Assembly (NCBI RefSeq): GCF_003627095.1
Contig: NZ_CP032627.1
Coordinates: 1,116,001-1,180,000, forward strand
DNA length: 64,000 nt
DNA from: Lactococcus allomyrinae
GTDB lineage: Bacteria > Bacillota > Bacilli > Lactobacillales > Streptococcaceae
Direction of reading: 5' to 3'
Shown: positions 3,748-43,796 of the stretch, in pieces
Numbering within the stretch: position 1 is the first letter of the stretch
How the letters are laid out: each line of letters opens with the position of its first letter
Program-made: the position numbers and the translations under genes
The notes under the pieces: model-generated
Seen by the model: only the letters and a program-made list of their open reading frames with translations
Told to the model about the DNA's origin: nothing
Databases searched by the model: none

Positions 3748-3844
3748 CTTACCTCCGAATCCTTGTTATAACCCAATTTCTGAACCTTTTTTATTTGGCA
3801 GTAGAGAATGACCTCAAAAGCCAAACGATTTATTGACAAAGAAA

Positions 3845-9356: not shown

Positions 9357-10406
9357 TCATTTATACCGCGTTTTCATGACATTGGTCGCAAGCATTTGGA
9401 TGTTTTCCAGCGTGCGCTCTTTTTCCATTGCTTCTGCTAAGCTCAATGCTGAGCGCTGAATGGAGTATGATGCGAGCAAGACTTCATTCATCCCGCCCAA
9501 ATCATCGCCCAGTGCGCCACAAAAGGCAATGGTTGGAACCTTATATTTTTCAGCAATTTTTGCCATGCCGTAGGGAACTTTCCCGTTTGCGGTCTGAAAG
9601 TCCATGCGCCCTTCGCCTGTGATGATGAGGTCAGCCGTTTTGACCGCTTGCTCAATTTTTAAGAGTCTGGCGATTTTGGGAAATCCTGCTTCAATCGTGC
9701 CGCCGAGCATTGCGATAGCGCCGCCGAGTCCGCCTGCTGCGCCTGTGCCTGCGATGGATTGCAGGTCAATGCCGTATTGCACTTTGACTTGTCTTGCCAC
9801 TTTTTGAGCCTCTTGGTCTTGTTGCTCCAAAATCTCAGGTGTGCCGCCTTTTTGCTTGCCAAAAAACCGAGCATAGCCTGTCTCGCCTGCGTAAACGTTC
9901 GTCACGTCAGCCAACCCCGTGATTTTTATATTTTCAAGCTGGGGTAAATGCTCAAATGAGCCGCCAAGCCCTTGCAACAAGCCCAGACCGCCGTCTGATG
10001 TGCCCGTACCGCCCAGACTGAGCATGATTTCAGTTGCACCTCGATTTTTCGCGTCAATGAAAAGAGCCGCTAAACCGCGTGTGGTCGCCTGCTGGATGGT
10101 TTCGGCTGATGCCGTGATTTTGTCAATGCCAACGACTTCTGCGGCCTCGATGACTGCGAGCTTGTCTGCAAGCAAGTAGCTTGCTTTGATAGGGCGCTCC
10201 AGCAAATCCACGGTTTCAACGCTAATCAGCGCGCCACCAATGCCGTGCTGAAGCGCGGAAATCGTACCTTCGCCTCCATCTGCGATTTCAAAAGTCTGGA
10301 CTTCACTAGCTGGAAAAGCAGACAAAATGCCTACTTTCACTGCATTATTCAGCGCTGCGGAAGTCGCCGAGCCTTTGAAGCTGTCGATTGCTACTACTAT
10401 TTTCAT
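9357..10406 (-). CDS. glxK: Glycerate kinase (GK type 1)
   Basis: Phosphorylates D-glycerate with ATP, giving phosphoglycerate for glycolysis. The 349 residues cover the whole GckA/GlxK-type fold: KIVVAIDSFKGSATS at the N-terminus, IADGGEGTISAL around residue 42, LSLGGTGTSDGGLGLLQGLG around 128, IAGTGAAGGLGGA and ITGEGRMDFQTANGK. It is the last gene of the PTS-MngB-kinase run, which makes functional sense because MngB releases glycerate. No Shine-Dalgarno is seen: the ATG follows the foldback-repeat end CTCACATCTTGT. The gene is GC-rich compared with recN or uvrC, consistent with acquisition together with its neighbours. The symbol is by family resemblance. Confidence 0.92.
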   Translation of the reverse strand: MKIVVAIDSFKGSATSAALNNAVKVGILSAFPASEVQTFEIADGGEGTISALQHGIGGALISVETVDLLERPIKASYLLADKLAVIEAAEVVGIDKITASAETIQQATTRGLAALFIDAKNRGATEIMLSLGGTGTSDGGLGLLQGLGGSFEHLPQLENIKITGLADVTNVYAGETGYARFFGKQKGGTPEILEQQDQEAQKVARQVKVQYGIDLQSIAGTGAAGGLGGAIAMLGGTIEAGFPKIARLLKIEQAVKTADLIITGEGRMDFQTANGKVPYGMAKIAEKYKVPTIAFCGALGDDLGGMNEVLLASYSIQRSALSLAEAMEKERTLENIQMLATNVMKTRYK

Positions 10407-10408
10407 AC

Positions 10409-10656
10409 AAGATGTGAGCCCGCTCTATGGTCTTAGCGCTTTAGCGCTTAGACTTCAGGGACAGCAGAAATCTGATAACCTAGTTGTCAAATTTTCGTTG
10501 ACTGTTCAGAGACGTAGAAAATTAGGGAAATGTGATTCTGACACATCGTGTCAGGTTCCATTTCATCTGAGTGTAACAACTAGCATATCCATAAATTGCT
10601 AAAGCAACAACGGCTATCCTATATTTTCCTAGTCTCTAGGAGGGCGAACTCAATTC
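10409..10656. repeat. Foldback intercistronic repeat, copy 2 (between mngB and glycerate kinase)
   Basis: In gene orientation it runs from AGGAATTGAGTTCG to CGGGCTCACATCTTG. Outer arms pair with G-U wobbles, further pairs are GATA..CTAGTTGT with ACAACTAG, and the centre is CTGACAC-ATC-GTGTCAG (10538-10554). The left terminus overlaps the mngB 3' end and encodes its last residues. Confidence 0.7.
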
Positions 10657-13266
10657 CTTTCTTTGTTTTTGAGTCAGGTGATGCTCTGAAATCCTCACTG
10701 TAATCACCTGATTTGGGTTAACCACACCGTTAAATGCTCGGTCGCGGATGACTTCTTTGAGCGAATGAAGCACGTAGTGGTCAAAGCCTGCTAATTCCAG
10801 TTTAACAGATTTTGAGCTTAGATTGTAAAATCTAGCCAAGATTTCGCCGGTATTTTCGGCTTTTTTGACCGTTGACAAGACCAAATCATGATTTTTCACG
10901 CTAAACATCGAGTACTGACAGGCTGTGACTGGCTTGCTTTTGTTGAGTTTCATGGCGTGATAAGGCATTTGGTTGTAAGTTTCGACTTTAGCATGATAAA
11001 TTTTTTCAGCTTGTGCGACTTCGACCGCCGAATTTGCAAAGGTCAGCGCCAAATCAAGCGTGAGCTTGCCTTGCATTTGCGAGTCTGACGTTGGCAATTT
11101 GATGCCTGACGGGCGACCTGGGCGGCGGTAGAGTTCTTCTTTGCCCAGCACGCCGACGGCACGCAAGACCGTGATAGCGATTGTGTCAAACTGCTGACCG
11201 ACGATTTCGTATTCTCTTGACGAATTCGTCAGCATGGCCACGGCATGATGGTCGTCCTCCAGCCCAACGTGTCCCAAGAACGGATAAATCGCGTCAGGCC
11301 GCTCGTCCCAGCCCTCTGCCTCCCAATAAGCCAGCGCGTCATCCACCACAGGCCGCCGAATCGTGCCAAATTGGTTGCTGGCAAAGCTCATGCTTGACGC
11401 AATCCCAGTCGGTACAAGAAGGCGCAAACGGTGGTCTTTTGCCGTATTTTCCACGGTTAATTCGACTTTGATAATGCGTGAGTGCTTGCTGACAAAGAGT
11501 TTCAGGTTGACAGGAAGTTTTGACAGGCTGTCAGTCCGCTGACGGCTTTCTGTCAGCGCTGATGGAACTGTAAATTCATAATTTGAAGTCAAAATAAATT
11601 CATTTTCAAACTCCAAAATCTTGACAGCAGCTTGCGTTTGCCCAAGCGACGAAATCGGAACTTCATCAGCCAGCGGTGAAAAGTCGTATTCGTCGCCGTC
11701 ATCTGCGGTGTCGTCCAGACTGAAAACATTTTCGTAAGTGCGATTTGACCGCCTGTCAGTAATTTTGACCGTGCCGTCCGGATTTCCCGTCAGTTCAAAA
11801 TCGTCCGTCACAATCCTGTCAGCAGGCTGACAGAAAATGTCTTGCCGCGCAGCTTCCTTGACATAAAGGACTTCGTAGCCCATCGCAGGCAAGTCGCGCA
11901 TCAGCTCGATTTCATATCTGAAAAACGGTTCATAATTGCCATAATGCACGATTTGACGGTCAATCAGCCCAGGGTCAAGCTCACTGACAGCCTGTAAGTT
12001 GTAGCTGACAGCGTTTCCATCAGCATCCATCAGCTCAAAGCCCGCCCAGCGCGTTGTAACAACGGTTTTGACCAGTCTGTCCGCCGCATAAGGCAAGAAA
12101 TTGAACAGCCCCAGCTTGTCAAAACCTGCCTTGTCAGGCGTTGCCTCCACGATTTTACGCTTGTAAAAGTCAATCAAGCGGTCGCAGCGCTCCTCAGCCT
12201 CCGCATAGCGCGCTTTGATTTCACGGTGTACCTTGTCCGAGCAACACGCGCCCATCGAGTCGTGCGCATGATTTTTCAGGAGCAACTTCCAAATGACCTC
12301 GACCAAGCCATGCTCATAAGAAAATCCAAGGTCAAAAGCCATTGACATCAAGGGTTCAAGCACATTCGTCAGCTTATTTTCAATCCGCGTATTCATCGCT
12401 TTCAAATCTTGCCGCTGGGCAAAAATCGAGCGATGCACACGCGAATATTTCCCGTCAATAAACTCGCCATGCAACGTATCCAGATTTTCATGTTGCTCGA
12501 TTTCTTCAAAGACATTTTCATAGCGGGACAGGAAAAATTCACGGTCAGGATAAATTTCATTGAGCTGTTCCAAAATCTCGAAAATATTTTGCTGAATGGG
12601 CATTTGGTCATGACCGTTCGGCAGCAGCTCCGTCAGCCCCGTTGCACCCTTATCCAGCACTTTAAAATACTTATCCAGTCGCTCTTTTAAGGCTTCTGGA
12701 TCAGTTGGCAAATATTTCCCAATCGCATAACCCAGCGGAAAAAGCTGTACCAAAACACGCGAGCCATCGTCAGATTCCCAGTAAAACTCGGTCTTATCCG
12801 AGCCATGCCGCTCCGAAACCCCGCGCCAAAAAATCGAATATTGAATGTCAAATTGGTTCAAAATCATCGGCATCTGCGAAGTCTGCCCGAAAGAATCAGG
12901 AATGTAGCCAATCGCCATCGGCTGCCCTAGCTCAATGCAATCTTTGTAGCCGTAGAGCAGGTTGCGCGTGATGGACTCCGCACCGGTCGTCATCTCGTCG
13001 GTCTGCGACACCCAAGGACCAACAATCAAGCGCCCAGCCTGCACCAACTTTCGCACACGCGCCTTATTTTCAGGCTTGACCTCAAAATAATCCTCTAAAA
13101 CCGCCGTCTGACCGTCCAGCACATAGCTCGGATAATCAGGATTGGATTCCAGCATTTCCATGATTTCGTCCATATTATTCACCAGCAAAATCTGGCTTTC
13201 TTCCGTTGAGAAATACCATTCTCTGTCCCAGTGCATATGTGGGACGACGTGAACACGTTTTTTCAT
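10636..13266 (-). CDS. mngB: GH38 alpha-mannosidase, mannosylglycerate hydrolase (MngB-like)
   Basis: MngB hydrolyses 2-O-(6-phospho-alpha-mannosyl)-D-glycerate, the product of PTS import, to mannose-6-phosphate and D-glycerate. The protein (876 residues) matches E. coli MngB from memory along its length: VVPHMHWDREWYFSTEESQI, YVLDGQTAVLEDYF, YIPDSFGQ with the presumed nucleophile Asp124, FWRGVSERHG, LLPNGHDQMP, the metal-site HAHDS at 333-337, and SSDDGDEYDY-like and RPGRPSGIK segments later. PTS permease upstream and glycerate kinase downstream complete the pathway. The last residues (about KELSSPS) are encoded by the end of a foldback repeat, so the native C-terminus has probably been altered. 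No Shine-Dalgarno precedes the ATG; another repeat ends four bases before it. GC is high. Confidence 0.92.
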   Translation of the reverse strand: MKKRVHVVPHMHWDREWYFSTEESQILLVNNMDEIMEMLESNPDYPSYVLDGQTAVLEDYFEVKPENKARVRKLVQAGRLIVGPWVSQTDEMTTGAESITRNLLYGYKDCIELGQPMAIGYIPDSFGQTSQMPMILNQFDIQYSIFWRGVSERHGSDKTEFYWESDDGSRVLVQLFPLGYAIGKYLPTDPEALKERLDKYFKVLDKGATGLTELLPNGHDQMPIQQNIFEILEQLNEIYPDREFFLSRYENVFEEIEQHENLDTLHGEFIDGKYSRVHRSIFAQRQDLKAMNTRIENKLTNVLEPLMSMAFDLGFSYEHGLVEVIWKLLLKNHAHDSMGACCSDKVHREIKARYAEAEERCDRLIDFYKRKIVEATPDKAGFDKLGLFNFLPYAADRLVKTVVTTRWAGFELMDADGNAVSYNLQAVSELDPGLIDRQIVHYGNYEPFFRYEIELMRDLPAMGYEVLYVKEAARQDIFCQPADRIVTDDFELTGNPDGTVKITDRRSNRTYENVFSLDDTADDGDEYDFSPLADEVPISSLGQTQAAVKILEFENEFILTSNYEFTVPSALTESRQRTDSLSKLPVNLKLFVSKHSRIIKVELTVENTAKDHRLRLLVPTGIASSMSFASNQFGTIRRPVVDDALAYWEAEGWDERPDAIYPFLGHVGLEDDHHAVAMLTNSSREYEIVGQQFDTIAITVLRAVGVLGKEELYRRPGRPSGIKLPTSDSQMQGKLTLDLALTFANSAVEVAQAEKIYHAKVETYNQMPYHAMKLNKSKPVTACQYSMFSVKNHDLVLSTVKKAENTGEILARFYNLSSKSVKLELAGFDHYVLHSLKEVIRDRAFNGVVNPNQVITVRISEHHLTQKQRKELSSPS

Positions 13267-13269
13267 AAT

Positions 13270-13438
13270 AAGATGTGAGGCCGACTGTCCTGAAGCGTAG
13301 AAAATTAGGACTTAAATAGTCCAGTGGACTATTTAAAGTTGGCTACCCCCAAAAAGTAGAGTAACCAAGTGCTTCTGCGCAAAGCGCAGGTTCAATTTTA
13401 TCTATTTTCATAGCTTCAAGAAGACCGAACTCAATTCC
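13270..13438. repeat. Foldback intercistronic repeat, copy 3 (between the PTS gene and mngB)
   Basis: Gene orientation: GGAATTGAGTTCGG to CGGCCTCACATCTT, with inner arms TTGAAGCTATGAAAAT against CTGAAGCGTAGAAAAT. It contains a perfect palindrome TTAAATAGTCCA-G-TGGACTATTTAA (13312-13336). Interior homologous to copy 1. Confidence 0.75.
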
Positions 13439-13448
13439 TTTCTAAGCT

Positions 13449-15374
13449 TTATACAACTTTACGCAATTTCGCTTGACGAGTAACAATCAAAAGAATTGTA
13501 GAAACAGCCGCACCAAGAATCGCTGCGCCAAACCAAACTAAATCAGCTGTCCAAATATTCGAACCTCCCTGAAGCAATGCCAAAGAGAAAATGCCTGCTC
13601 CTGGAACGTTTAAGCCAATATTAGCCGAGGCAACAATACTTCCTGTTACCAAAGAACCTGCAATAAATGAACCTAACACCCGAATCGGATCTCCCATAGC
13701 AACAGGAATTGCACCTTCAGTAATTCCAGCAAATCCTAAAATCCAAGTTTGCGTTCCAATCTCACGCTCCTCTAGTGTCCAAATATCTTTTCTGATGAAC
13801 ATTGCCGCAGATAAACTGAAAGCAGAGACCATTTTAACAGAAGCAAAGATTGCATAAGGGATAAAGTTACCAGAAGCCATTGCCCCAATGCAGAAAGCGT
13901 AAGCTGCTTTATTGACAGGACCACCGAGGTCAAAACTAACCATTGCGCCAATAATTGCGCCAAGCAAAAGTGCATTTGTTCCCTGCATTGATTTTAAAAA
14001 GTCAAGGAGTGCAGTATTAAGCCAAGCAACAGGTTGACCAATGATAAAAAGCATTAAAATCGCGGTAATCAAAGTACCTACCACAGGATAGACCCAAAAA
14101 GTTACAAAACCTTTAAAAATTCCTTTTGTTTTAATGTGATTCTTCATCCACTTCATCAAAAATCCTGCAACAAGACCACCTAACATCCCACCAAGGAATC
14201 CCGAATTAATTGCAGTCGCAGCAAGACCAGCCGCAAAACCAGGAGCAAGACCCGGCTTATCTGCGATAGAATAAGCCATATAAGCCGAAAGGATAGGTAC
14301 CATCAAGACAGAAAGCATATTTCCGCCAAGTGTTTTAAGTGTAAATAACCAGAAGTTGTTAACTGCTGGCGCAATCGGGGTTGCCATCAGATTTTGTAAA
14401 TGAAAAATCTGTGTTGCCATCACAGCAAACGCCCCAATCATCCCACCTGCAATGATAACAGGAATAATGTAAGAAATCCCTGTCAATACCGCGTCTTTAA
14501 CTTCTGTCCAAAAATTCTTTTCTTCAATGTCATTGTTTTCAATCTCATCGTCATAAGATGGAGTATAGTTCTCGGATTTTAAGAGTAGGTCATTGATAAC
14601 CTTATCTGCGTTTTTTATAGGTTCTGCGACTTTGACATCAATTTTAGGTAGTTTTTTGAATCTTTCTAATTCTTTGAGCGCCACATCATGAGCGAAGATA
14701 ATCCCAACTGCATGGTTAATATCTTTTGGCGTGATGCGGTCTTCAATCCCATTCGCTCCCTGCTTTTCGACTTTAGCAGTATAGCCAAGCTCTACGGCTT
14801 TCTTGGAAATTGCTTCAGCTGCCATATAAGTATGCGCGATACCTGCTGCACAAGCGGTGATTCCAAGAATTAATCCTTTATTTTCTTCTGATGCTGGAAT
14901 TATTTTTTTATCTGTTGTTGAGAGAATTTTTAGAAGTTCAAAAGGATTTGACGCTGTCTTGATTTTTTCTAAATAATTACTATCCCCCAGTCGAGTCGCG
15001 AGTTCTGCAAGCAAGTCTAGATGCGTACTTCCTGCTTCTGTTTCTGGAATTGCAAGTACAAAAAGTGTATCCACACGACTTTCTGTATTCAATGACGGAT
15101 ATTCTGCTGCTATTAATGGTTTTTTCAATCTAATTACTGCAAAAGCTGCTTGCTTCACTGTGACTGACTTTCCATGAGGAATAGCAAGACCATTTTCAAA
15201 ACCTGTTACTCCCATACTTTCACGGTCATATAACGCCTGTTTAAAGTCTGCTGCTTTCTCAACCACACCTTGCTGCAAAAACTTTTGAGAAACAAATTCA
15301 AAAATCTCTTCTTTTGTAGTGAAGGATTGATTGAGAAAAATCAAATGTTCAGATGTTGCCGTTGATAAATTCAT
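13449..15374 (-). CDS. mngA: PTS fructose-type EIIABC permease, predicted mannosylglycerate transporter (MngA-like)
   Basis: A single-chain phosphotransferase permease that imports and phosphorylates its sugar. Order is A-B-C: EIIA with GLAIPHGKS (phospho-His67), EIIB with ILGITACAAGIAHT (phospho-Cys175), and a roughly 340-residue EIIC of the fructose family (SYIIPVIIAGGMIG, FDLGGPVNKAA, GFAGITEGAIPVA). Length 641. The start at 15374 is preferred over an ATG nine codons upstream because GGAGG lies five bases before it. mngB and glycerate kinase follow in the same direction, hence the predicted substrate 2-O-alpha-mannosylglycerate. An extended -10 (TGATAAGAT) and a palindrome TTCCCA-N7-TGGGAA lie about 150 bases upstream. 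It is paralogous to the permease at 21070-23148. Composition is less GC-rich than that paralogue. Confidence 0.88.
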   Translation of the reverse strand: MNLSTATSEHLIFLNQSFTTKEEIFEFVSQKFLQQGVVEKAADFKQALYDRESMGVTGFENGLAIPHGKSVTVKQAAFAVIRLKKPLIAAEYPSLNTESRVDTLFVLAIPETEAGSTHLDLLAELATRLGDSNYLEKIKTASNPFELLKILSTTDKKIIPASEENKGLILGITACAAGIAHTYMAAEAISKKAVELGYTAKVEKQGANGIEDRITPKDINHAVGIIFAHDVALKELERFKKLPKIDVKVAEPIKNADKVINDLLLKSENYTPSYDDEIENNDIEEKNFWTEVKDAVLTGISYIIPVIIAGGMIGAFAVMATQIFHLQNLMATPIAPAVNNFWLFTLKTLGGNMLSVLMVPILSAYMAYSIADKPGLAPGFAAGLAATAINSGFLGGMLGGLVAGFLMKWMKNHIKTKGIFKGFVTFWVYPVVGTLITAILMLFIIGQPVAWLNTALLDFLKSMQGTNALLLGAIIGAMVSFDLGGPVNKAAYAFCIGAMASGNFIPYAIFASVKMVSAFSLSAAMFIRKDIWTLEEREIGTQTWILGFAGITEGAIPVAMGDPIRVLGSFIAGSLVTGSIVASANIGLNVPGAGIFSLALLQGGSNIWTADLVWFGAAILGAAVSTILLIVTRQAKLRKVV

Positions 15375-15387
15375 GATAACCTCCAAT

Positions 15388-15502
15388 AAGCTTGAGTCCA
15401 TAACTTAAAAACGATAAAAAGTGAAATTTATGCACAAAACTATCAGTTCATATCGCTATTGTCCTAATCGTTATTCTTAGGTGTCCTCGCACTCAGTTTT
15501 AA
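15388..15502. repeat. Foldback repeat, copy 4 (in the leader of the first PTS gene)
   Basis: Gene orientation: ACTGAGTGCGAGGAC to GGACTCAAGCTT, with AACGAT-containing arms on both sides. It is a diverged copy and lies between the promoter and the Shine-Dalgarno of the PTS gene. Confidence 0.45.
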
Positions 15503-15521
15503 TTTATTTTTCTATGAATTT

Positions 15522-15561
15522 ATCTTATCATGAGAAAAGCGCTTCCCAAAAATTCTGGGAA
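15522..15561 (-). promoter_or_regulatory. Promoter and operator of the first PTS gene
   Basis: Minus-strand TGA TAAGAT (-10 at 15522-15527) with a cre-like GAAAAGCGCTTCCC and the palindrome TTCCCA-N7-TGGGAA (15543-15561) just upstream. The palindrome is a candidate RpiR operator and the cre-like site suggests CcpA control; both are inference. The second PTS gene has the same TTATCTTATCATGA block. Confidence 0.55.
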
Positions 15562-15590
15562 AAAAGAAAGGCTCTACACGAAAGCCTCTA
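15561..15590 (-). terminator. Terminator after the first rpiR gene
   Basis: Minus strand: AGGCT-N9-AGCCT followed by TTCTTTTTT. It overlaps the PTS operator palindrome. Confidence 0.55.
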
Positions 15591-15681
15591 AAATTTGTGT
15601 AATTTTACACAGGGATATTGTTAATTCAATTGGTGATTTTATAACTTATATCAAAATTAAATTCATAAATTAAAGCAATTT

Positions 15682-16398
15682 TTATTTCAAAAAAGTCTGA
15701 AATAGACTATGCATCACAATCAATATTGGTGTTTTATCCGTGACATCATAGTTATCAACGATTTCTTTTTCTGTATAACAAAAAAGCGAAATATCTGAAA
15801 GTCGTGATAGGCGATTATCTGTCAAATTAGTCAAACTGATGATGATATGTCCTAATTTTTTGGCATGAGTTGCTAGGTCAATCACAGAATCTGTTTCTCC
15901 TGATAGGCTGATAAAAAAGAAAATTTCCTGCTCTGCGTGCTCCATCCGATGCCTGAGTTTATTTGGGTAGGTATAAAACAAAAATTTATCATCTAAGGCG
16001 TAGAAATTATCCACACAAATTTTTGCGACAAGTCCCGTCTGACCCACCGCATAAAAATTGACCGCTTTAGCTTTTTGGAAAGCCGAGATTACTTTTGCTT
16101 CACGCACCTTATCTATCAAATCAATATTTTTTAACAGAAGTACTGCTTGGGGATTAGAAGGCAGTTTTTTATCTGTTATTTCATGTCTTAACTCAGCTTT
16201 TAACTCTGAAAAACCCTTATAACCTAGTTTATGACAAAAACGCGTGATTGTATTTGGCACGGTGTAAATCGTTTGAGCTAGATGAACTATTTTCATCTCA
16301 ACAACTTCTTCTTTATGGTTGAGAATATAATCTACAAGGTCATCTTCAAGTTCTGTTAATTTATAATCAAAATTTATGGTACGGCTTTCAAAATTCAT
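15682..16398 (-). CDS. MurR/RpiR family regulator (first copy)
   Basis: RpiR regulators pair an N-terminal HTH with a C-terminal SIS domain that binds phosphosugars. Here the HTH is at about residues 1-75 (TIYTVPNTITRFCHKLGYKGFSELKAEL) and the SIS domain at about 105-235, with IFFFISLSGETDSVIDLATHA as the sugar-phosphate loop. The ATG at 16398 has AAGGGAG close upstream; a TTG at 16437 overlapping the phosphorylase stop is an alternative start that would add 13 residues. The gene is the tail of the mannosidase-phosphorylase-rpiR run and lies immediately upstream of the first PTS gene. Mannose-6-phosphate or a related ester is a plausible effector, by inference. It is AT-richer than the enzyme genes before it. 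Confidence 0.88.
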   Translation of the reverse strand: MNFESRTINFDYKLTELEDDLVDYILNHKEEVVEMKIVHLAQTIYTVPNTITRFCHKLGYKGFSELKAELRHEITDKKLPSNPQAVLLLKNIDLIDKVREAKVISAFQKAKAVNFYAVGQTGLVAKICVDNFYALDDKFLFYTYPNKLRHRMEHAEQEIFFFISLSGETDSVIDLATHAKKLGHIIISLTNLTDNRLSRLSDISLFCYTEKEIVDNYDVTDKTPILIVMHSLFQTFLK

Positions 16399-16429
16399 AT
16401 CTCCCTTATTGTAACCTGTTTCACTAAAA

Positions 16430-18046
16430 TTAGTCAAGGCTTATCCAGACATACTGATAAGGGTTTAGCGTTCCCGAGAATACAGTTTGTGTGATAATAT
16501 CAAGTCCTGAGAACGAAAGTGTAACAATTTCGTCACTGATATTGATGATTGAAAGCAAGGTTTTTTTACCATATTCGCGCTTCAATGCAAAAACTCGTTC
16601 TCCAAAATCCAATATTTTTTGATTGCCATAAGGATTGAAAGCGACTTCGTTTTTCCTGAATTTGAGAAGCTGCGAGAGTTTTTCGTAAATTTGTTTTCTC
16701 TCTAGATTGCTTTCAAGTTCGGCATAAAGCCTGGTTTTATCTAGTTTTTCACGGTTGATTCGTCTTGCTATTCCTGTTTCTTGGACAGCTTTTAGGTCAT
16801 TTCTTGAGCCGAAAATAGAGTGATAATAAATGGCAGGAACGCCGAGAAAGCTGAGCAAAATCGCATGGGCAGCAAGTAGCTTTTCGGCTGAGCCAAGCGC
16901 TGACAGATAGTTGATATTTAGCTCATAGGGCGACTGGCTGCCGTCAGGATTGTTTTTGTAGCTGACTTTGCCGCCATTGTCTAACACCTGTTGGGCAATA
17001 CGTTCTCGCTCTTCGTCTGTTAAAATGCCTTCTGTGGGACGCAAGCCGATACCGTCATGACTGGCGAGAAAGTTAAAATAAGTGGCGCTGTCTGAGACAG
17101 GTTTGATGGTTTTCGCCCAGTGGGTCAGTGCTGACGAATTTCCTGAAATGAAGCTGTGCAAAACCAGCGGCGGCAAGGGGAACTGATAGACCATGTTTGC
17201 CTCGTCCGTACCGTTGCCGAAATAGCTGATGTTGTCCGCGTGCGGCACGTTGGTTTCGGTGATGATTTGGACATTTGGTGCGAGCGCGTCAAGGAGCGTC
17301 CGCCAGAGCTTGATGACTTCGTGGGTTTGCGGCAGGTGCATCGAGGTCGTGCCGGATTGTTTCCAGAGAAAGCCGATGGCGTCCAAACGGATGGAACTTG
17401 CGCCGCGCGCGACATATTCAAGCAGGACTTCGGTCAGTCGTGCCAGCATTTTTGGGTCGTGCGCATTGGTATCGACTTGGTCAGCGGAAAAGGTCGTCCA
17501 AACTTTTTTGCCGTCAATTTCTGTAAATAATGGGCTAGTGCGTGGTCGCGTGGTTTTGGAGCTGTCAAAGTTTTCGTCAAAACTGATGAAAGCGCTTTTA
17601 AATTCGTCAGCGTCTGACAAAAATTGCTGAAACCAATCTGATGATTTGGACAGATGATTGCAGACAAAGTCAAACATCAAATGGCGCTCCTGCGCGAGAT
17701 TTTCGACATCTTGCCAAGTGCCCAGCTCAGGATTAATCGCCAGATAATCGACGACTGAAAAGCCGTCATCGCTGGTGTAGGGGAACATCGGCAGGATGTG
17801 AATGTCCGTGAAATCGGGCAATTTCTCCGCGACGACTTCACGCAGCACCGAAAGTGGCGCGCGGTCTTTGTCGCGGAAACTGTCGCCGTAAGTGATGAGG
17901 TAAGCGGTTTCTTCACTGGGTTTCGCTGCATTTTTATGAACTTTTGATTTCGTCAGCAGGCTGACAAAAAGTTGTTTTGCCTCTAGCAAATCCTCGGCGG
18001 TGTAGATTTTTTCTAAATGTTGGTTGATTTTTTCTTGTAAGTTCAA
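16430..18046 (-). CDS. GH13_18 phosphorylase, probable glucosylglycerate phosphorylase (sucrose-phosphorylase family)
   Basis: The family phosphorolyses alpha-glucosides to Glc-1-P plus acceptor. Across 538 residues this protein resembles E. coli YcjM, a glucosylglycerate phosphorylase, more than classical sucrose phosphorylases: LITYGDSF, PMFPYTSDDGFSVVDY, HLMFDFVCNHLS, TRPRTSPLFT, VWTTFSADQVDTN, the nucleophile region IRLDAIGFLWK, acid/base IITETNVPH, and LASHDGIGL. Those comparisons are from memory of the family. Context agrees: glycerate kinase, two glycerate-glycoside-type mannosidases and two PTS permeases surround it. It overlaps the upstream mannosidase by four bases. Because PTS import would phosphorylate a glucosyl unit, its substrate may be glucosylglycerate released from mannosylglucosylglycerate. 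Sucrose phosphorylase remains possible. Confidence 0.82.
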   Translation of the reverse strand: MNLQEKINQHLEKIYTAEDLLEAKQLFVSLLTKSKVHKNAAKPSEETAYLITYGDSFRDKDRAPLSVLREVVAEKLPDFTDIHILPMFPYTSDDGFSVVDYLAINPELGTWQDVENLAQERHLMFDFVCNHLSKSSDWFQQFLSDADEFKSAFISFDENFDSSKTTRPRTSPLFTEIDGKKVWTTFSADQVDTNAHDPKMLARLTEVLLEYVARGASSIRLDAIGFLWKQSGTTSMHLPQTHEVIKLWRTLLDALAPNVQIITETNVPHADNISYFGNGTDEANMVYQFPLPPLVLHSFISGNSSALTHWAKTIKPVSDSATYFNFLASHDGIGLRPTEGILTDEERERIAQQVLDNGGKVSYKNNPDGSQSPYELNINYLSALGSAEKLLAAHAILLSFLGVPAIYYHSIFGSRNDLKAVQETGIARRINREKLDKTRLYAELESNLERKQIYEKLSQLLKFRKNEVAFNPYGNQKILDFGERVFALKREYGKKTLLSIINISDEIVTLSFSGLDIITQTVFSGTLNPYQYVWISLD

Positions 18047-20565
18047 AGTTTTATCTCCAAGTTTGCAAAGTCTCGCTCTGTCAGCACTGACAGGCTGTCA
18101 GTAAGCTTTTCTGTCAAATCCACTTGTGCAAAATCAGGCAATTTGACCGTCTCCTCAGTCGGATTGAAGACGCGCAAGATGGACGCGTCCGATTGCTCGG
18201 CTTTTTTGAATGCGGAGACGAAAAGATGGTTGGGCAAAGTCAATAAATTCAAGCGTTCAGGCAGATTTTTCATGGCTTCAGGTTGCGGCAATTCAAAGCG
18301 TTCCAGCCGTTCCTCAAAGGAATTGAGCGACTGCAGCTGATAGGTCAGCACATTGCTTGCAAATTGCTCTGCAGCGCGGTATTGCTCCGCCACATCGAGC
18401 TGGTCAGCCCACTGATAAACGTAGTCAAACTGCCAGTCGCCGAGCATTTGCGCATCTGGTGTTTCAACGATTTTGTTGTTAATCCCAGATGCACGTCCAG
18501 GTCGCCAAGCCAAATCATCTCGACCAAGCAAGCCAACCGCGCGGAACAGTGTCAAATTCAGACTGTCAGCCGTCGCCTCGTACTCTTTCAGCCCTTTCGT
18601 ATAAAGGCTGACCGCGCCCGTCAGCTCAGGCACGCAGACAAAGCGCTCCAGCGGATAAATCGCCTGCGGACTTTCGACAAAGCCCTCCTCGCGCCAAGTG
18701 GTGAGATATGGGTTGATATTTTGCCGTTTTTGCAGGCTGAACCCTTGGTCGCCGTAACTCACGCCCTCCGCATTTTCGCCGTGAAAGCGCACGCGCACGC
18801 GATGATTTTTGCGTTGATTGTTGATTTTATGGGAAATTTTGATGCCTTTTGAGCCTTTTTCAAGCGTGATTTCGGTCAAAATTTCTTGCCCAGAAAGCAC
18901 TGACAGAATTGTCAGCTGGCTGACAAGCGCTGATGACTGACTTTTGACCAAGCTGAAATGCCCAGAGAAAGTCGGCAGAGCGTCCTCGTCAGTTGGTGAA
19001 TAATCATAGGAATCCCCAGCGTCTGTCGCATCCTCAAAATCAAACCAATTTGACCTGACAGCGCCGTCAGAAAGCCTTGTCAGCGTCAGATTTCCCTTGT
19101 CAAATTTGACCTCATAAAAATCATTGGAAATCTCCGACTGACAGCCTGTCAGTAAGTTTGGCGCGGCATTTTCAAGCTCAAAAGTCCGATAACCAAAGCC
19201 GTCAAAGCTGACCGCCGCCAAAATCTCGCTGCGATAGTAGCCTGGCAGCTCGATTTCGTGCTCGCCGTCCGCCATCGCCTTGACCGCTTTTCCGCCCGAA
19301 ATATAATCTTGCTTGAGCAAAGTTTGCGTAAGCCCTTTCAGGCGAACCGTTTTTTCGCGGGTAAAAAGCACAAATTTCACATTTTTTGTCAGCGCTTTGG
19401 GCAATAAATTAAAAGCCAAAATCGCATTTTCGCCCACACCGCGCGCGATTTGCTTCTTCAAAATATTGATGTAGCCGTCAACCACGCGCTCGATTTTCAA
19501 CAGCCGATGCTTAATCGCCAAATTCGTCTCGTCCGAATTGCAGCCGCCAAGCGAGTCATGCGCGTGCGCATCAAACAATTCACGCAGGCAATCGTTAATC
19601 CAACTGCTCGGATAAGTGCCGCCTAGCTTTTTTGTCAGCACTGACAGCGGCTCCAACTGCTGATAAATTTTTTCTTCCACACGCGCATTGAGCATTTTCA
19701 AATCCACCCGCTGCGAGCGAATTGTATTGTGAATTCGTGACTTTTGACAGGCTGTCAGTTCGCCCGAAATCGTTTTGACAGAACTGTCAAAATTGACAGC
19801 GCTCATAAATTCCTCATAATTTGACAAAACAAATTCATACGGCAAATCTTGCGCATTCAACGCCGCCACCACTTGTGGAAAATGCGTACGCACCAGCACC
19901 TGATCGCCCCCAGCAGGCAAAAGCAAAGGCGTATCAGCAGGCGTCATCTCCGCCAACTTGTCCAAAATCGGCAACAAAGACTGCTCAAGATAAGTCGCGT
20001 CAGCCGCCAAAAATTTCCCAGGTCCATAACCAAAATACAGATTATTCGCCTGAACCGTCTCGCCATTTGGCGCTTGCCAAAGAAAATTCAAATTTTCCGC
20101 CACTTGCGCCGTATAAAGCCCACGCTGCAAGACCGCATTTTCCAAGCCAAAACGCTTAAAAATACTCGGCAGATAAGCATTTTGTCCAAAAATATCAGGC
20201 AAATATCCCACCGCCATCGCGCCACCAAGCCGATCCGCGCCCATTTTCCCCAGCAACAAATTGCGAATGACCGACTCCGTCTGATTGAGCAAAGTATCAC
20301 ATTGCGTGTACCAAGGTCCGATTTTCAAGCGACCAGCCGCCACCAATTTCTCCGCCAACTCCCGTTTTTCAGGATATTTCGCCAAAAAATCATGCATCAC
20401 CGAATACTGCCCATCAAACACATAAGACGGAAATTCCGCGTGCGCATCCAAAAAATCCAGCAAAAAATTCATATTTTGCGACAAAATGACATTGGAATCC
20501 TCCTGTGAAAAGTACCACTCACGATCCCAGTGACTGTGGGGGACGACATAAACTTTACGTTTCAT
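18043..20565 (-). CDS. GH38 alpha-mannosidase (second, diverged copy)
   Basis: A second glycoside hydrolase family 38 enzyme of 840 residues. It has VVPHSHWDREWYFS at the N-terminus, YLPDIFGQN with the presumed nucleophile Asp124 at the same position as in the MngB-like protein, a metal-site AHAHDSLGG, and RPGRASGINNK near the end. It differs clearly from the MngB-like paralogue (for example QRGLYTAQ in place of WRGVSERHG), which suggests another substrate. It overlaps the phosphorylase gene by four bases, so the two enzymes probably act on one compound; mannosylglucosylglycerate is my hypothesis. A 421-bp foldback structure separates it from the second PTS gene upstream. It is GC-rich and carries several CTGTCAG/CTGACAG words. 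Confidence 0.87.
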   Translation of the reverse strand: MKRKVYVVPHSHWDREWYFSQEDSNVILSQNMNFLLDFLDAHAEFPSYVFDGQYSVMHDFLAKYPEKRELAEKLVAAGRLKIGPWYTQCDTLLNQTESVIRNLLLGKMGADRLGGAMAVGYLPDIFGQNAYLPSIFKRFGLENAVLQRGLYTAQVAENLNFLWQAPNGETVQANNLYFGYGPGKFLAADATYLEQSLLPILDKLAEMTPADTPLLLPAGGDQVLVRTHFPQVVAALNAQDLPYEFVLSNYEEFMSAVNFDSSVKTISGELTACQKSRIHNTIRSQRVDLKMLNARVEEKIYQQLEPLSVLTKKLGGTYPSSWINDCLRELFDAHAHDSLGGCNSDETNLAIKHRLLKIERVVDGYINILKKQIARGVGENAILAFNLLPKALTKNVKFVLFTREKTVRLKGLTQTLLKQDYISGGKAVKAMADGEHEIELPGYYRSEILAAVSFDGFGYRTFELENAAPNLLTGCQSEISNDFYEVKFDKGNLTLTRLSDGAVRSNWFDFEDATDAGDSYDYSPTDEDALPTFSGHFSLVKSQSSALVSQLTILSVLSGQEILTEITLEKGSKGIKISHKINNQRKNHRVRVRFHGENAEGVSYGDQGFSLQKRQNINPYLTTWREEGFVESPQAIYPLERFVCVPELTGAVSLYTKGLKEYEATADSLNLTLFRAVGLLGRDDLAWRPGRASGINNKIVETPDAQMLGDWQFDYVYQWADQLDVAEQYRAAEQFASNVLTYQLQSLNSFEERLERFELPQPEAMKNLPERLNLLTLPNHLFVSAFKKAEQSDASILRVFNPTEETVKLPDFAQVDLTEKLTDSLSVLTERDFANLEIKL

Positions 20566-20594
20566 ATTTTTCCTCTTTTTTTCTTTTTTTTTTT

Positions 20595-21015
20595 GGAAAT
20601 GTTTCTAGTAATGAATGCTCACTGACCTATCTCAACAAGCTCTAACATCGCTTTAGTCTCGCTTTCGCGAGCCGTCAGCGCTGTAAGACCTCGTAAATCG
20701 AGGATGTCAGTTGCGCAGATTGTATGGTGCTAAAGCACCAACAATCTCATTACTAGAAAATTTCCACTTGTGGAGCGCTACGCGCTGGTCGGGCTTTGCC
20801 CGACACATAACGTTTGCGAAGCAAACTTGCGCGTAGCGCTATCTGTGGAAATTTTCTAGTAGTGAGAACAGCAATGCTTTAGCATTGACTGTTCCGCGCA
20901 GGAAGCATCCTCGATTTACAACTTCTTGACAGCCTGACGGCTCGCCCGCGAGACTAAAGGCTGTTTAGAAGTTGTTGAGATAGGCTGACGAGCACTCACT
21001 ACTAGAAACATTTCC
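20595..21015. repeat. 421-bp giant foldback (nested inverted repeat)
   Basis: The two arms run from GGAAATGTTTCTAGTA to its complement and pair over roughly 200 bases with mismatches, for instance CCTATCTCAACAA, TAAATCGAGGATG and TACTAGAAAATTTCCAC on both sides. Each arm also contains its own hairpins (GTGCTAAAGCAC, GTCGGGCTTTGCCCGAC at 20788-20804, GTTTGCGAAGCAAAC at 20812-20826). No open reading frame of note lies inside. It sits between the second PTS gene and the second mannosidase gene. Confidence 0.85.
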
Positions 21016-21069
21016 CAAACCAAACAAAAACAAAGGAGAATTGCTCCTCCTCCTTCTCAACAATTTCAA

Positions 21070-23148
21070 CTAAAAACCAATCTCCTCCCCGCGCGCTTCA
21101 CGCCGTTTGATGAGCGCAAAGCGGACAAAGATATTGAGCAATGCGACGACCAGCACGCCAACAACCAACCCCAGCAAGTAAGCTGGAATGTTCGTGACCA
21201 AAGGCCAGCCCCAAACTGCAGGCAAGGGCAACCATTGCACCGCACCGAGCGCGACCGCCGTACAAGAGCCAGCGATTGCACCAATAATGTTAATCGGCAC
21301 CACAATCAAAGGATTGCGCAGCATGAAAGGAATACCGCCCTCAGAAATCGCAATGAAACCAAGAATAAACGAAGTGCCACCAGCGACACGCAAATCTTCT
21401 GGATAAACCCGACGACGCACCACGAAGCGGTCAATAATCGTCGATAATCCAAGCCCAATCGGCGGAATGACAATCGCCAAAACACGCGCAGTCAAAGGAA
21501 AAGTCTTATCCGCAGCCAAGGCAATGTTAATCGCACCAGCCGCTTTATTGACAGGGCCACCGAGGTCAAATGCCGTACAAGCCGCAATAATCGAAGATAA
21601 AAGCAACTTTCCAGAGCCTGACATTGAAGTAATCCAGTTGGCAATCGCTGCGTTCAAACCACCGAAAACAGGTTGAACCAAAGCAAAGTTTAACACAAAG
21701 ATAATGAAAACGGAAATCCCGGGAATTAAGAACATCGGCTTAATCGCCTGCAAGTTTTTAGAAACCTTGATGTGTTCATTGAGCCATTTCACACAGAAAC
21801 CAGCAACCAGACCTAAAATCAAAGCGCCCAAGAAACCTGACGGAATCGCACCTTTATTGAACGTTCCAAGTGCTGTAATCGCTGTATCCGTTGCTTTTGC
21901 TGACCCGCCAGCCGCCGTCGTCAAGGGAATACCAAAGCCCGCACCCCAAATCGTGAATTGCAAACCGCTAGAGAACAAACCGCCCGCAAAACCAGCAACC
22001 AAGCCCGTCCGACCCGCAATCGAATAAGCTACAAACATCCCGAAAATCGGATAAATAAACTTGAGCAACAAACTCCCAAAAGCATAGAGATAGTTGGTGT
22101 AAAGCGTCAACCCGCTCGCCGCTGCTGCGCCACCAGGGAAATAAGCACTAGAGCCAACCGCCGTCATCGGCAAATGCAAAACATAGGCCCAAACCAAAGT
22201 CGCAATCCCCATCATCAACCCAGCCGCAACCAGCAGCGGAATCATGTAAGAAATCCCTGTCATGACTGACGTAGAGAGCGTTTTGAGAAAGCCTTGTTTT
22301 TGCTCAGGTTCGTCAGCGCTGACAGCATTCTCGTCAGCTGGCTGATAATTTTTCGCTTTTTCGAGCAAGTCATTCACGACTTTATCGGCATTTTTGATGG
22401 GTTCAGACACAGGCACATCGACTTTTGGCAACTTTGTAAAGCGTTCGAGTTCTTGGAGCGCGACATCGTGCGCAAAAATCACACCCATCGCTTGATTGAC
22501 ATCCGCTGCTGTGATGCGGTCTTCAATCCCATTTGCGCCTTGTTTTTCGATTTTCGCCGTGTAGCCAAGCTCTGCGGCTTTTTTGGCAATCGCTTCTGCT
22601 GCCATGTAAGTGTGCGCGATACCCGCCGCACAAGCGGTAATGCCGAGGATTAAGCCCTTATGCCCCGCGACGACTTCTGTTTTTTCTGCGCTTTTCAGTA
22701 AAGTCAAGATTTCTTGCGCACTCGCGGCCTGCTTGATTTGGTTGACATAGCTGAGGTCGCCGATCTTTGCAGATAATTCGGCAAGGAGCGTCAAGTGCGT
22801 ACTGCCTGCTTCGCGTTCTGGAATCGCAAGAATGAAAAGCGTATCGACTTGATTTTCAGGATTGAGCGAGACATATTCTGCACTTGCGAGCGCTTGTGAA
22901 AGCCGCACCACAGCAAAAGTCGCCTTTTTGACCGTGCTTGATTTGCCGTGCGGGATGGCAAGTCCATTTTCAAAACCTGTCAGTCCTTCATTTTCGCGGT
23001 CATAGAGCGCCTGCTTATAGTCCGCAGCGCTTGCGACGACGCCTACTTCAGCAAATTTCTGAGCGACAAACTCAAAAATTTCTTCTTTTGTCGTGAACGG
23101 CTGATTGAGAAAAATCAACTGCTCCGATGTTGCATGAGATAAGTCCAT
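21070..23148 (-). CDS. PTS fructose-type EIIABC permease (second copy)
   Basis: A 692-residue phosphotransferase permease with EIIA (GLAIPHGKS, His67), EIIB (ILGITACAAGIAHT) and EIIC. EIIA and EIIB are close to those of the first permease, but EIIC differs: it has an extra region around residues 340-440 (a glycine/alanine-rich loop) and SISEGGIPFML-type ends, so the substrate is probably different. The start at 23148 is chosen because GGAGG lies five bases upstream. The mannosidase and GH13 phosphorylase follow downstream and a divergent RpiR gene lies upstream. I predict a mannosyl-glycerate-type oligosaccharide as substrate. GC-rich compared with the flanking housekeeping genes. Confidence 0.87.
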   Translation of the reverse strand: MDLSHATSEQLIFLNQPFTTKEEIFEFVAQKFAEVGVVASAADYKQALYDRENEGLTGFENGLAIPHGKSSTVKKATFAVVRLSQALASAEYVSLNPENQVDTLFILAIPEREAGSTHLTLLAELSAKIGDLSYVNQIKQAASAQEILTLLKSAEKTEVVAGHKGLILGITACAAGIAHTYMAAEAIAKKAAELGYTAKIEKQGANGIEDRITAADVNQAMGVIFAHDVALQELERFTKLPKVDVPVSEPIKNADKVVNDLLEKAKNYQPADENAVSADEPEQKQGFLKTLSTSVMTGISYMIPLLVAAGLMMGIATLVWAYVLHLPMTAVGSSAYFPGGAAAASGLTLYTNYLYAFGSLLLKFIYPIFGMFVAYSIAGRTGLVAGFAGGLFSSGLQFTIWGAGFGIPLTTAAGGSAKATDTAITALGTFNKGAIPSGFLGALILGLVAGFCVKWLNEHIKVSKNLQAIKPMFLIPGISVFIIFVLNFALVQPVFGGLNAAIANWITSMSGSGKLLLSSIIAACTAFDLGGPVNKAAGAINIALAADKTFPLTARVLAIVIPPIGLGLSTIIDRFVVRRRVYPEDLRVAGGTSFILGFIAISEGGIPFMLRNPLIVVPINIIGAIAGSCTAVALGAVQWLPLPAVWGWPLVTNIPAYLLGLVVGVLVVALLNIFVRFALIKRREARGEEIGF

Positions 23149-23161
23149 GAGAACCTCCAAT

Positions 23162-23322
23162 AAGATGTGAGTCTAGTCTAAAATACTATGCTTTAGCGCT
23201 TAAAATTCAAGAATGGCAGATATAAGATTTTTGTGAACTGCTTTGAAATGATAAAAATTCGTGATTTTATACGAAGCACAAGTCCAATTTATTTTCTGGC
23301 TTTAGTAAGACAAACTCAATTC
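23162..23322. repeat. Foldback repeat, copy 5 (leader of the second PTS gene)
   Basis: Gene orientation: GAATTGAGTTTGTCTTAC to TAGACTCACATCTTA, ending just before the GGAGG of the PTS gene. Termini match the family; the interior is diverged. Confidence 0.6.
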
Positions 23323-23341
23323 ATAAATTTTCTATGCTTTT

Positions 23342-23393
23342 ATCTTATCATGAATGTAAACGTTCTTTTATCCAATTTCTGGATAATTATCCA
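23342..23393. promoter_or_regulatory. Divergent control region of the second PTS gene and rpiR
   Basis: Contains the block TATCTTATCATGA (minus -10 TAAGAT), a cre-like ATGTAAACGTTCT, and three half-sites: TTATCCA-N5-TGGATAA (23368-23386) followed at once by TTATCCA (23387-23393). The half-site array is a strong candidate operator for the adjacent RpiR protein; that assignment is inference. Confidence 0.6.
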
Positions 23394-23421
23394 AAATAAG
23401 TAAACGCTTAACTTTTTATGT

Positions 23422-23427
23422 TAAAAT
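23422..23427 (+). promoter_or_regulatory. Extended -10 immediately before the second rpiR gene
   Basis: TGT TAAAAT ends six bases before the ATG at 23434 and no Shine-Dalgarno is present, implying a leaderless message. Confidence 0.55.
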
Positions 23428-23433
23428 AATAAC

Positions 23434-24192
23434 ATGGGAATATTATTAAACAACTTTCAGAGTCAAATGAAATATTTGACTGAAAGTGAATTGTCCGTCT
23501 TCGTTGAAATGGATAATCGGCCAGAGATTCTAATTTCATCAAATCTAACAAAACTATCTGCTGAACTTTTATCATCTAATTCTACAATCATAAGACTTTG
23601 CCAAAAATTGGGGTTTACTGGGTTCAGTGAATTTCGCTCGGAGATTAAAAAATTAATTGAACAAACAAGGTATAGCGCTCAACCTGATTTACTAAATCGC
23701 TACCAATTTTTCTTTAATGAGATTTTACCTAATATTAATCAAGATAAACTCGAATTTTTTGCTGAAAAAATTCATAAATCAAATAATATTTTCATTGTTG
23801 GACTTGGATTGACCAAACCTATTGCCGAATATATGTCAAAATACTTATATCAGCTTGACCGAGCGGCGATCTATGTCTATGAAAGTCATATGCTTGATTT
23901 GCTCCCCAATCTTCTTCAGCGCTCTGATTTAGTGATTTTTATCTCTGAAAGTGGAGAAACAAAGAGCTTACTCTCATGTGCCTCAAAAGCAGCTCAAAGT
24001 GCGGCGACACTTCTTTCTATCACTAATTCCCAACACAATCCTCTTAATCACACTACTCATATGAGCCTAACTTCACGAATGCCTGAAAATCAATATCATA
24101 ACTACGATGTCACAAGTCGAGTCTTCCAGACCGCTATCATTGACCTTGTTTTAGATATCTATCTCAATAAATACCTAAAAACTCCCGAATAA
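23434..24192 (+). CDS. MurR/RpiR family regulator (second copy)
   Basis: A 252-residue RpiR regulator, the only plus-strand gene of the glycerate-glycoside block, divergent from the second PTS gene. HTH at about 1-75 (SNSTIIRLCQKLGFTGFSEFRSEI), SIS domain at about 105-240 with LVIFISESGETKSLLSCASKA. It is clearly distinct from the first RpiR protein. The three TTATCCA half-sites between it and the PTS gene are the likely binding site. The message seems leaderless: an extended -10 ends six bases before the ATG. A strong hairpin terminator overlaps the last codons. A phosphosugar inducer such as Man-6-P or the imported glycoside phosphate is expected from the family. Confidence 0.9.
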   Translation: MGILLNNFQSQMKYLTESELSVFVEMDNRPEILISSNLTKLSAELLSSNSTIIRLCQKLGFTGFSEFRSEIKKLIEQTRYSAQPDLLNRYQFFFNEILPNINQDKLEFFAEKIHKSNNIFIVGLGLTKPIAEYMSKYLYQLDRAAIYVYESHMLDLLPNLLQRSDLVIFISESGETKSLLSCASKAAQSAATLLSITNSQHNPLNHTTHMSLTSRMPENQYHNYDVTSRVFQTAIIDLVLDIYLNKYLKTPE

Positions 24193-24202
24193 CGGGAGTT
24201 TT
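24177..24202 (+). terminator. Terminator of the second rpiR gene
   Basis: AAAACTCCCG-AATAA-CGGGAGTTTT followed by AATTTT; the stem contains the stop codon. It marks the end of the accessory block facing xseB. Confidence 0.85.
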
Positions 24203-24233
24203 AATTTTATGGCACACTAGAAATTGAATAGTA

Positions 24234-24473
24234 TTAATAACTTTTTTGCTCTGGCGAGAAATCACTTTCACTATCATCTTTTCCGACAATTTTTACAAGT
24301 GTTTCTTCTGCTTCATTGAGTGTTTTTTTCAAACTTTCAGACAGCTTCATTCCTTTTTGAAATTCTGCAATCGCATCTTCTAAAGCGACATCACCTGACT
24401 CCAATTTTCGAACAATTGTTTCTAATTCTGCAAGGTTTTCTTCAAATTTTTTCTCTTCTTTTTTAGTTGGCAA
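24234..24473 (-). CDS. xseB: Exodeoxyribonuclease VII small subunit XseB
   Basis: The 79-residue small subunit of exonuclease VII. It contains the family core [19 protein letters not shown] followed by [13 protein letters not shown]. The start is TTG at 24473, with AAGGAGG upstream. Normally xseB overlaps or abuts xseA and is followed by ispA; here it is 238 bases from xseA, with hairpins between, and the next gene on its downstream side is the plus-strand rpiR of the accessory block. Function is processive degradation of single-stranded DNA together with XseA. Confidence 0.93.
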
Positions 24474-24519
24474 GATAGCCCTCCTTATATACTAACTTTA
24501 AAATCTAAGTAGTAACTGC

Positions 24520-43361: not shown

Positions 43362-43796
43362 GTCTACTCTTCTCCATTAATCTATTTTCTGATAGCTAAT
43401 ATTATATTCTCTAACGATTGTTTAATAAGATTTCTTTCTATCAAGAGCCGCGCCAAAAAATTACGCAGCTAATCTAGAAACTATATTTAAACTGTATTTT
43501 AAACTCTAATCATCAGATTTTTTTCGCTTGTTAATATTAGCTAGCCCTAATATTCCTAAAAGCATGACTAAGCCTACACCACTCATTTCTTTAGAGATTT
43601 TTTCATCATCACCAGTCTTTGGTAAATCATTTCCAGATAAGGTTAGTGTTGAAGCAGATACTGGGCTAATTCCCAATGTAGAATCTACAATAGAGCCTAT
43701 CGTTTTATCTGAAGTTTGTGCTGAATTCTCTCCTGATTCTCCAGTTTTTTTAGGGTTTTTCGTATTTCCAGAACCCTCTGAGGTCGTACTATTCTT

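Follow-up and report, generated by a model that had tools for sequence, protein, structure and literature searches.

The window analysed here, a stretch of 64,000 nucleotides from Lactococcus allomyrinae (NZ_CP032627.1, positions 1,116,001 to 1,180,000), contains a locus at 9357–24192 that is probably best explained as two fused catabolic modules, each combining a permease of the phosphotransferase system (PTS) with a hydrolase of family GH38, with one glycerate kinase common to both. Module 1 would serve the breakdown of mannosylglycerate, and module 2 most likely that of mannosylglucosylglycerate. We infer the substrates, the site of phosphorylation and the regulation from protein families and gene neighbourhoods. 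The minus strand carries, in this order, EIIb (permease), GH38b (hydrolase), a glucosylglycerate phosphorylase (GGaP), RpiRa (regulator), EIIa, GH38a and the glycerate kinase, with the regulator RpiRb divergent on the plus strand. All eight genes have the family membership claimed for them in an earlier sequence-only reading of this DNA, and each is a single full-length open reading frame (ORF) of the expected length at the position given below. The two modules also occur separately in other genomes; in the window, the mannosylglycerate set (RpiRa-EIIa-GH38a) lies between GGaP and the glycerate kinase.

In module 1, 2-O-mannosylglycerate would be imported as its 6-phosphate and split to mannose-6-phosphate and glycerate. 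In module 2, EIIb would import an alpha-mannosyl-capped glucosylglycerate, most likely mannosylglucosylglycerate, and phosphorylate its outer mannose. GH38b would then cut off mannose-6-phosphate and leave unphosphorylated glucosylglycerate, which GGaP would phosphorolyse to glucose-1-phosphate and glycerate. Glycerate kinase, mannose-6-phosphate isomerase and phosphoglucomutase would route the products into glycolysis. In PTS import the phosphate is placed on the outer sugar, and alpha-mannosides are the substrates of GH38 enzymes. MngB, the GH38 enzyme of the Escherichia coli mannosylglycerate system, acts on the 6-phospho form (PMC2815779). Because PTS loci pair GGaP with either a mannosidase or a phosphatase, mannosylglucosylglycerate would be the best substrate for EIIb and GH38b. 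It is the natural compound that fits module 2: a reference title in PMC3694870 gives the compound of Petrotoga miotherma as alpha-mannopyranosyl-(1->2)-alpha-glucopyranosyl-(1->2)-glycerate.

The phosphorylase (16430–18046, minus strand) belongs to family GH13_18 and is 42% identical to YcjM of E. coli, the only one of the three characterised glucosylglycerate phosphorylases that was compared. Marks described in PMC7178133 as splitting glucosylglycerate from sucrose phosphorylases are (T/S)ETN at strand beta-5 and a glutamate in loop A, where most other enzymes have glutamine; sucrose phosphorylases carry the motif N(L/V)D(I/L/V)YQ. The window enzyme has TETN at residues 263–266 and Glu375 in loop A (SPYELN), along with the catalytic triad D222/E264/D331. 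Both marks are also present in YcjM. TETN was found in 36 of 37 fetched GGaP-type homologues (L173 has TESN), and the loop-A glutamate in all 37. Four sucrose-phosphorylase-like proteins have neither mark and read NNLDIYQ. The phosphorylase tree separates these four, which were classed by motif and are its only sucrose-type rows, none of them characterised, from 39 GGaP-type rows including YcjM with full support (SH-aLRT 100). The sequence-only reading had seen a resemblance to glucosylglycerate phosphorylase and had named clustering with sucrose enzymes, together with action on sucrose only, as one ground for refuting its proposal; the grouping with YcjM bears the resemblance out, and the predicted activity of the GH13_18 protein is that of a glucosylglycerate phosphorylase. 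On the motifs and this tree with its four sucrose-type proteins, we reject a sucrose or sucrose-6-phosphate phosphorylase. At E <=1e-80, GGaP was found in 9 of 335 genomes of the window's family (four with GH38b, four with a HAD phosphatase and one ycj-like). It is uncommon in the class and the phylum at the same threshold, with 13 of 398 and 8 of 398 sampled genomes, respectively, own genome included. We left a weak match in L094 (26%, 64 bits) out of the GGaP count.

GH38b (18043–20565, minus strand; Pfam GH38 N and C domains) is 31% identical to GH38a and also 31% identical to MngB. Its gene overlaps that of GGaP by exactly 4 bases (18043–18046), confirming an overlap that the sequence-only reading had counted. 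The catalytic residues of GH38b, comprising zinc ligands, nucleophile and acid/base, are intact. By column counts, the zinc ligands H12, D14, D124 and H336 are kept in all 91 aligned GH38 rows. The acid/base D221, mapped via D232 of SpGH38 (PMC2815779), shows no exception in 30 rows. The GH38 tree, with 92 rows from ORFs over 700 aa, places GH38b in a clade of 19 rows (18 distinct, as the copy of the same-genus genome G003 appears twice) with SH-aLRT 100, and every row of this clade comes from a GGaP locus. Four of these loci (L158, L162, L163, L164) came in only by way of their GGaP. The other 73 rows comprise one GH38 of Vibrio maerlii (L062), in a neighbouring clade, that lies with a GGaP, and 72 labelled as being without GGaP; two of the 72, GH38a of the window and its counterpart in L087, were labelled so by hand, as they share loci with GH38b and GGaP. 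A count free of selection on GGaP comes from a scan of named genomes with GH38b alone. Among the best 80 of 588 relatives, GGaP lay near the GH38 gene in 12, namely 11 GH38b-clade loci and V. maerlii, and in none of the remaining 68, some of which were shortened by contig ends.

The second permease and hydrolase had been called diverged, and both indeed score clearly under the curated cut-offs for their E. coli counterparts (EIIb 397 vs 763 for MngA; GH38b 594 vs 1138 for MngB). That GH38b is a plain MngB copy is ruled out by this cut-off, its separate clade and its active-site signatures. The GH38b and MngB clades are discriminated by 28 positions. Beside the acid/base, GH38b reads GGDQV where MngB reads GHDQM, and the loop aligned with the leaving-group loop of SpGH38 is WRPGRASGINN in GH38b vs RPGRPSGIK in MngB. 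The out-of-clade V. maerlii enzyme has the GH38b version of both signatures. These differences, at the expected place of the leaving group, would fit a leaving group larger than glycerate. GH38b is predicted to be a phospho-mannosyl-glucosylglycerate hydrolase of a GGaP-linked GH38 subfamily.

EIIb (21070–23160, minus strand) is a fructose-type EIIABC permease with Pfam EIIA_2, IIB and EIIC domains. It fails the MngA model, and it falls outside the MngA clade. EIIa and EIIb are 67.5% identical in EIIA and 84.4% in EIIB but only 32% in EIIC, and the EIIC of EIIb is only 26% identical to that of MngA. This pattern suggests that the substrate-selecting EIIC differs, while the phosphate-relay domains EIIA and EIIB have been exchanged or homogenised between the neighbouring permeases. 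In the EIIC tree, for which the tree tool gave a long-branch warning, EIIb lies in a clade of 17 rows (SH-aLRT 99), all from GGaP loci. The EIICs of V. maerlii and of one Enterococcus raffinosus locus that lacks GGaP branch just outside this clade; the permeases of GGaP loci L056 and L162 are placed elsewhere. EIIb is the predicted importer of mannosylglucosylglycerate. RpiRb (23434–24192, plus strand), a MurR/RpiR regulator with Pfam HTH_6 and SIS domains that is divergent from EIIb, is probably the regulator of module 2; most GH38b loci have an RpiR-type gene beside EIIb or GGaP. We also noted inverted repeats, one of 10 bases near RpiRb and one of 12 bases between EIIa and GH38a.

The coupling of GGaP with a partner that could free its substrate of phosphate was examined in 41 GGaP loci, 12 of which were brought in by the GH38b scan. 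GH38b and EIIb are present in 19 of these, none of which has, within 9.5 kb, a homologue of the HAD phosphatase seen in G022. Four loci of the window's family (G022, G820, G822, G1094) have the HAD phosphatase with a glucose-type EIICB and no GH38. The other 18 have neither GH38b nor the phosphatase, and ABC permeases are found in 14 of them. The mannosidase and the phosphatase never occur together (0 of 41), and the four phosphatase loci nest within the GH38b lineage of the GGaP tree. If GGaP needs unphosphorylated glucosylglycerate, the phosphate would have to leave either with the outer mannose or through a phosphatase, and the swap pattern is as expected. The sequence-only reading had argued that the PTS phosphate must go before GGaP acts, which agrees with this distribution. 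That closely related GGaPs are accompanied by a mannosidase in some loci and by a phosphatase in others is a clean comparative argument for the predicted function. Possibly, the four phosphatase loci represent a second PTS route, for glucosylglycerate itself. They hold a glucose-type EIICB, an RpiR regulator, GGaP and the HAD phosphatase (L038 7442–13963, L175, L176, L177), with a glycerate kinase in three of the four. A glucose-type EIICB without the phosphatase occurs in L087, beside the GH38b module, and in L170, where a sodium:solute symporter follows the glycerate kinase. In L156, a GH63/MGH1-like hydrolase (2140–3828) directly precedes GGaP and is perhaps another uncapping enzyme.

Module 2 (RpiRb, EIIb-GH38b-GGaP-glxK) also occurs in Listeria goaensis, Fictibacillus, Pontibacillus, Paenibacillus, Citrobacter, the same-genus G003 and others, where the fetched stretch contains no MngB-type gene; V. 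maerlii has an MngB-type gene elsewhere in its genome (L100). To call the pathway new for a lactic acid bacterium, as the sequence-only reading did, was too narrow: the module is not special to that group, being present also in Listeria, Bacillaceae, Paenibacillus and Citrobacter, and in V. maerlii with a GH38 outside the clade. Module 2 spans phyla. The complete set of eight genes was found in identical order, at 56–80% protein identity, in L087, a metagenome-assembled genome of the window's family Streptococcaceae. Of the 19 GH38b loci, 14 have a glycerate kinase no more than 9.5 kb from GGaP, and in Enterococcus thailandicus (L059) the order is reshuffled to GGaP-kinase-EIIb-GH38b. Near the module in L059 (12672–14390) and in Citrobacter amalonaticus L060 (15947–17692) are genes for proteins of about 570–580 aa that are 44% alike; the L059 protein had no Pfam match.

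In module 1, EIIa (13449–15401, minus strand; EIIABC) meets the curated MngA model PRK09765 (848.4 bits vs a cut-off of 763). It is 50% identical to E. coli MngA, with 58% in the IIC domain, and is placed in the MngA clade of the EIIC tree. GH38a (10636–13266, minus strand) is 48% identical to E. coli MngB and falls in the MngB clade (24 rows, SH-aLRT 100), although it just misses the curated cut-off of PRK09819 (1089.6 vs 1138). We assign EIIa as an MngA-type mannosylglycerate PTS permease and GH38a as an MngB-type phospho-mannosylglycerate hydrolase. RpiRa (15682–16437, minus strand), a MurR/RpiR regulator by Pfam, is probably the regulator of this module. An RpiRa-like gene adjoins MngA/MngB-type pairs without GGaP in six loci (L070, L077, L080, L082, L084, L101), which belong to Bacillaceae and Fictibacillaceae. 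Translation of RpiRa probably begins downstream of the TTG start that was listed; a Streptococcaceae homologue begins MMNFKSRTIN. Module 1 may not be new to lactic acid bacteria, since the terms MngB and mannosylglycerate appear in genome papers on Lactobacillus pentosus and Pediococcus pentosaceus. The glycerate kinase (glxK; 9357–10406, minus strand; TIGR00045 279.7 bits, cut-off 168.45) probably serves both modules.

For the remaining steps, the own genome contains manA above its curated cut-off and two HAD proteins of the phosphomannomutase (PMM) type, one adjoining manA, in a search whose control matched only Lactococcus lactis among 14 genomes. An enzyme of this type serves lactococci as alpha-phosphoglucomutase. 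The only PF02878-type protein in the genome is GlmM (614.8 vs a cut-off of 447.55), which makes either of the two PMM-type HAD proteins the likelier phosphoglucomutase.

EIIb and GH38b might instead form a second system for mannosylglycerate or another alpha-mannoside, with GGaP handling free glucosylglycerate that enters otherwise. The homology of GH38b to MngB, with catalytic residues kept, and the strong likeness of the EIIA and EIIB domains would agree with this, but we consider it rather unlikely. The EIIC domain, the expected substrate selector, is the very part that has little in common with MngA. Moreover, GGaP is present in every GH38b-clade locus seen and in no locus with MngB-type GH38 only (the window and L087 hold both kinds). 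None of the 19 GH38b loci has a homologue of the HAD phosphatase, and ABC permeases lie within 9.5 kb of GGaP in just one (L052, on the opposite strand).

It is less probable still that EIIb imports glucosylglycerate itself, that a phosphatase elsewhere in the genome strips the phosphate, and that GH38b is incidental. Four members of the family do pair a glucose-type PTS with a HAD phosphatase in one locus, but these loci have another PTS family and no GH38. No such phosphatase was found near GGaP in the GH38b loci, in a search confined to that neighbourhood, and the overlap of the GH38b and GGaP genes in the window also speaks against an incidental mannosidase. We regard it as very improbable that GGaP runs in reverse, or in the turnover of glucosylglycerate made by the cell as an osmolyte, even though its reaction can run both ways and it has been suggested to help regulate glucosylglycerate levels (PMC7178133). 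The PTS, the regulator and the kinase indicate catabolism, and a search of the own genome for glucosyl-3-phosphoglycerate synthase (NF010496) gave only matches below the curated cut-off, which led us to reject home synthesis.

The predicted degradation of mannosylglucosylglycerate by module 2 nevertheless has several points against it. Any alpha-mannosyl-glucosylglycerate would suit the scheme. That GlmM is the only PF02878-type match leaves the phosphoglucomutase step without its expected enzyme of that type. Within the GH38b clade, Asp337 (D352 of SpGH38, in the -1 subsite) is Asp in the window and Asn in 3 of 18 rows (L058, L059, L060), and the glycine beside the acid/base is not exclusive to the clade, as L068, which lacks GGaP, also has GGDQ. 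In the GGaP tree, a ycj-type ABC locus (L037; G009) falls inside the GH38b lineage as well. No kinase was found near GGaP in 5 of the 19 GH38b loci (L053, L057, L060, L061 and L158, the last on a contig of 9 kb). In one of these, from Alkalibacterium putridalgicola (L057), the usual place of the kinase after GGaP is taken by a GH65 gene (14604–16901; 27% to YcjT), which the scheme does not need. Some loci are near-identical pairs (L054/L163 and L038/L176). The 19 GH38b loci share descent and may have been inherited as a block, so they do not represent 19 events; more independent support for the proposed pathway comes from the phosphatase swap, the reordered L059 locus and the out-of-clade enzyme of V. 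maerlii. Finally, same-genus copies contain stops or frameshifts. In L035 (G005) the ORFs of GH38a, RpiRa and EIIb are split and GGaP has an in-frame stop, while in L036 (G003) the ORFs of EIIb and GGaP are split, reflecting either decay or poor assembly.

The G+C content of the island is 44.8%, above that of its left (37.3%) and right (35.8%) flanks, which suggests acquisition from outside; both regulators have 34%. The gap of 504 bases between EIIb and GH38b contains a giant imperfect hairpin (20580–21020, minus strand; 441 bases), found by RNA folding, with a minimum free energy of -264.7 kcal/mol (z -24.2; 0 of 100 shuffles as stable). It spans the most stable 440-base windows in a folding scan of the whole window and carries a repeated CTCATTACTAGAAA-type motif. 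Related fragments were found in G005, in the same gap, and in G007 and G002, that of G007 following an ORF which by eye resembles histidyl-tRNA synthetase. The own genome has no second copy at E <=0.001, and L087, with its identical gene order, has no comparable gap between EIIb and GH38b. The hairpin probably stems from the insertion of a repeat element in this lineage and would not belong to the conserved module. Rfam gave nothing relevant in 20000–24500 of the window. CcpA sites with at most one mismatch numbered 10 in the window vs 6.0 expected, and 11 of 100 shuffles had as many, so we make no claim. Elsewhere in the window, three overlapping ORF pairs look by eye like single genes split by a frameshift: a drug/metabolite-type transporter, also named by eye (7379–8331), a MucBP surface protein (43506–47692) and a metal P-type ATPase (60057–62251).

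Mannosylglucosylglycerate, a rare salt-stress protectant, is known to serve Petrotoga and Rhodopirellula as a compatible solute (PMC3694870). Among the matches listed in a search of open-licence papers, by titles and abstract openings, we found no published pathway for its catabolism. The locus offers a concrete, testable breakdown route for this compound, and its second hydrolase marks out a GH38 subfamily for which a new leaving group is predicted. The phosphorylase is carried by many organisms in which no accumulation of glucosylglycerate is expected, which has been put forward as a puzzle (PMC7178133); such a breakdown route is a possible answer.

Compared to known systems, module 1 closely resembles the E. 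coli mngR-mngA-mngB locus, where EIIa and GH38a have their counterparts and where PTS import is likewise followed by GH38 cleavage. In contrast, the mng locus has no phosphorylase and no second set, and EIIb and GH38b of the window fall outside the MngA and MngB clades. With the GH13_18 glucosylglycerate phosphorylases (YcjM and those of Meiothermus silvanus and Spirochaeta thermophila) the window enzyme shares the family motifs and the catalytic triad. However, these known enzymes are tied to an ABC importer or to osmolyte synthesis genes, whereas GGaP of the window lies with the genes of a fructose-type PTS and of an alpha-mannosidase. The G022-type loci have close relatives of this GGaP, belong to the window's family and also use PTS import, but there the phosphate is predicted to be removed by the HAD phosphatase and GH38 is absent.

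The E. coli ycj operon (YcjM-U) likewise has a strict glucosylglycerate phosphorylase beside a gene for the possible removal of an outer sugar. It differs from the window by its ABC import, keto-sugar dehydrogenases, epimerase and kojibiose phosphorylase YcjT, and its imported substrate is given as not known in PMC11543891. Tentatively, and with less confidence than we place in the two-module explanation, GGaP might be the common end-point of several uncapping routes. These could include a PTS with an alpha-mannosidase for mannosylglucosylglycerate, a glucose-type PTS with a phosphatase for glucosylglycerate, and ABC import with keto-sugar epimerisation and kojibiose phosphorylase for a hexosyl-glucosylglycerate. 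The ycj substrate might then be an alpha-1,2-hexosyl-glucosylglycerate, and capped sugar-glycerates might be a widespread food for Bacillota and enterobacteria.

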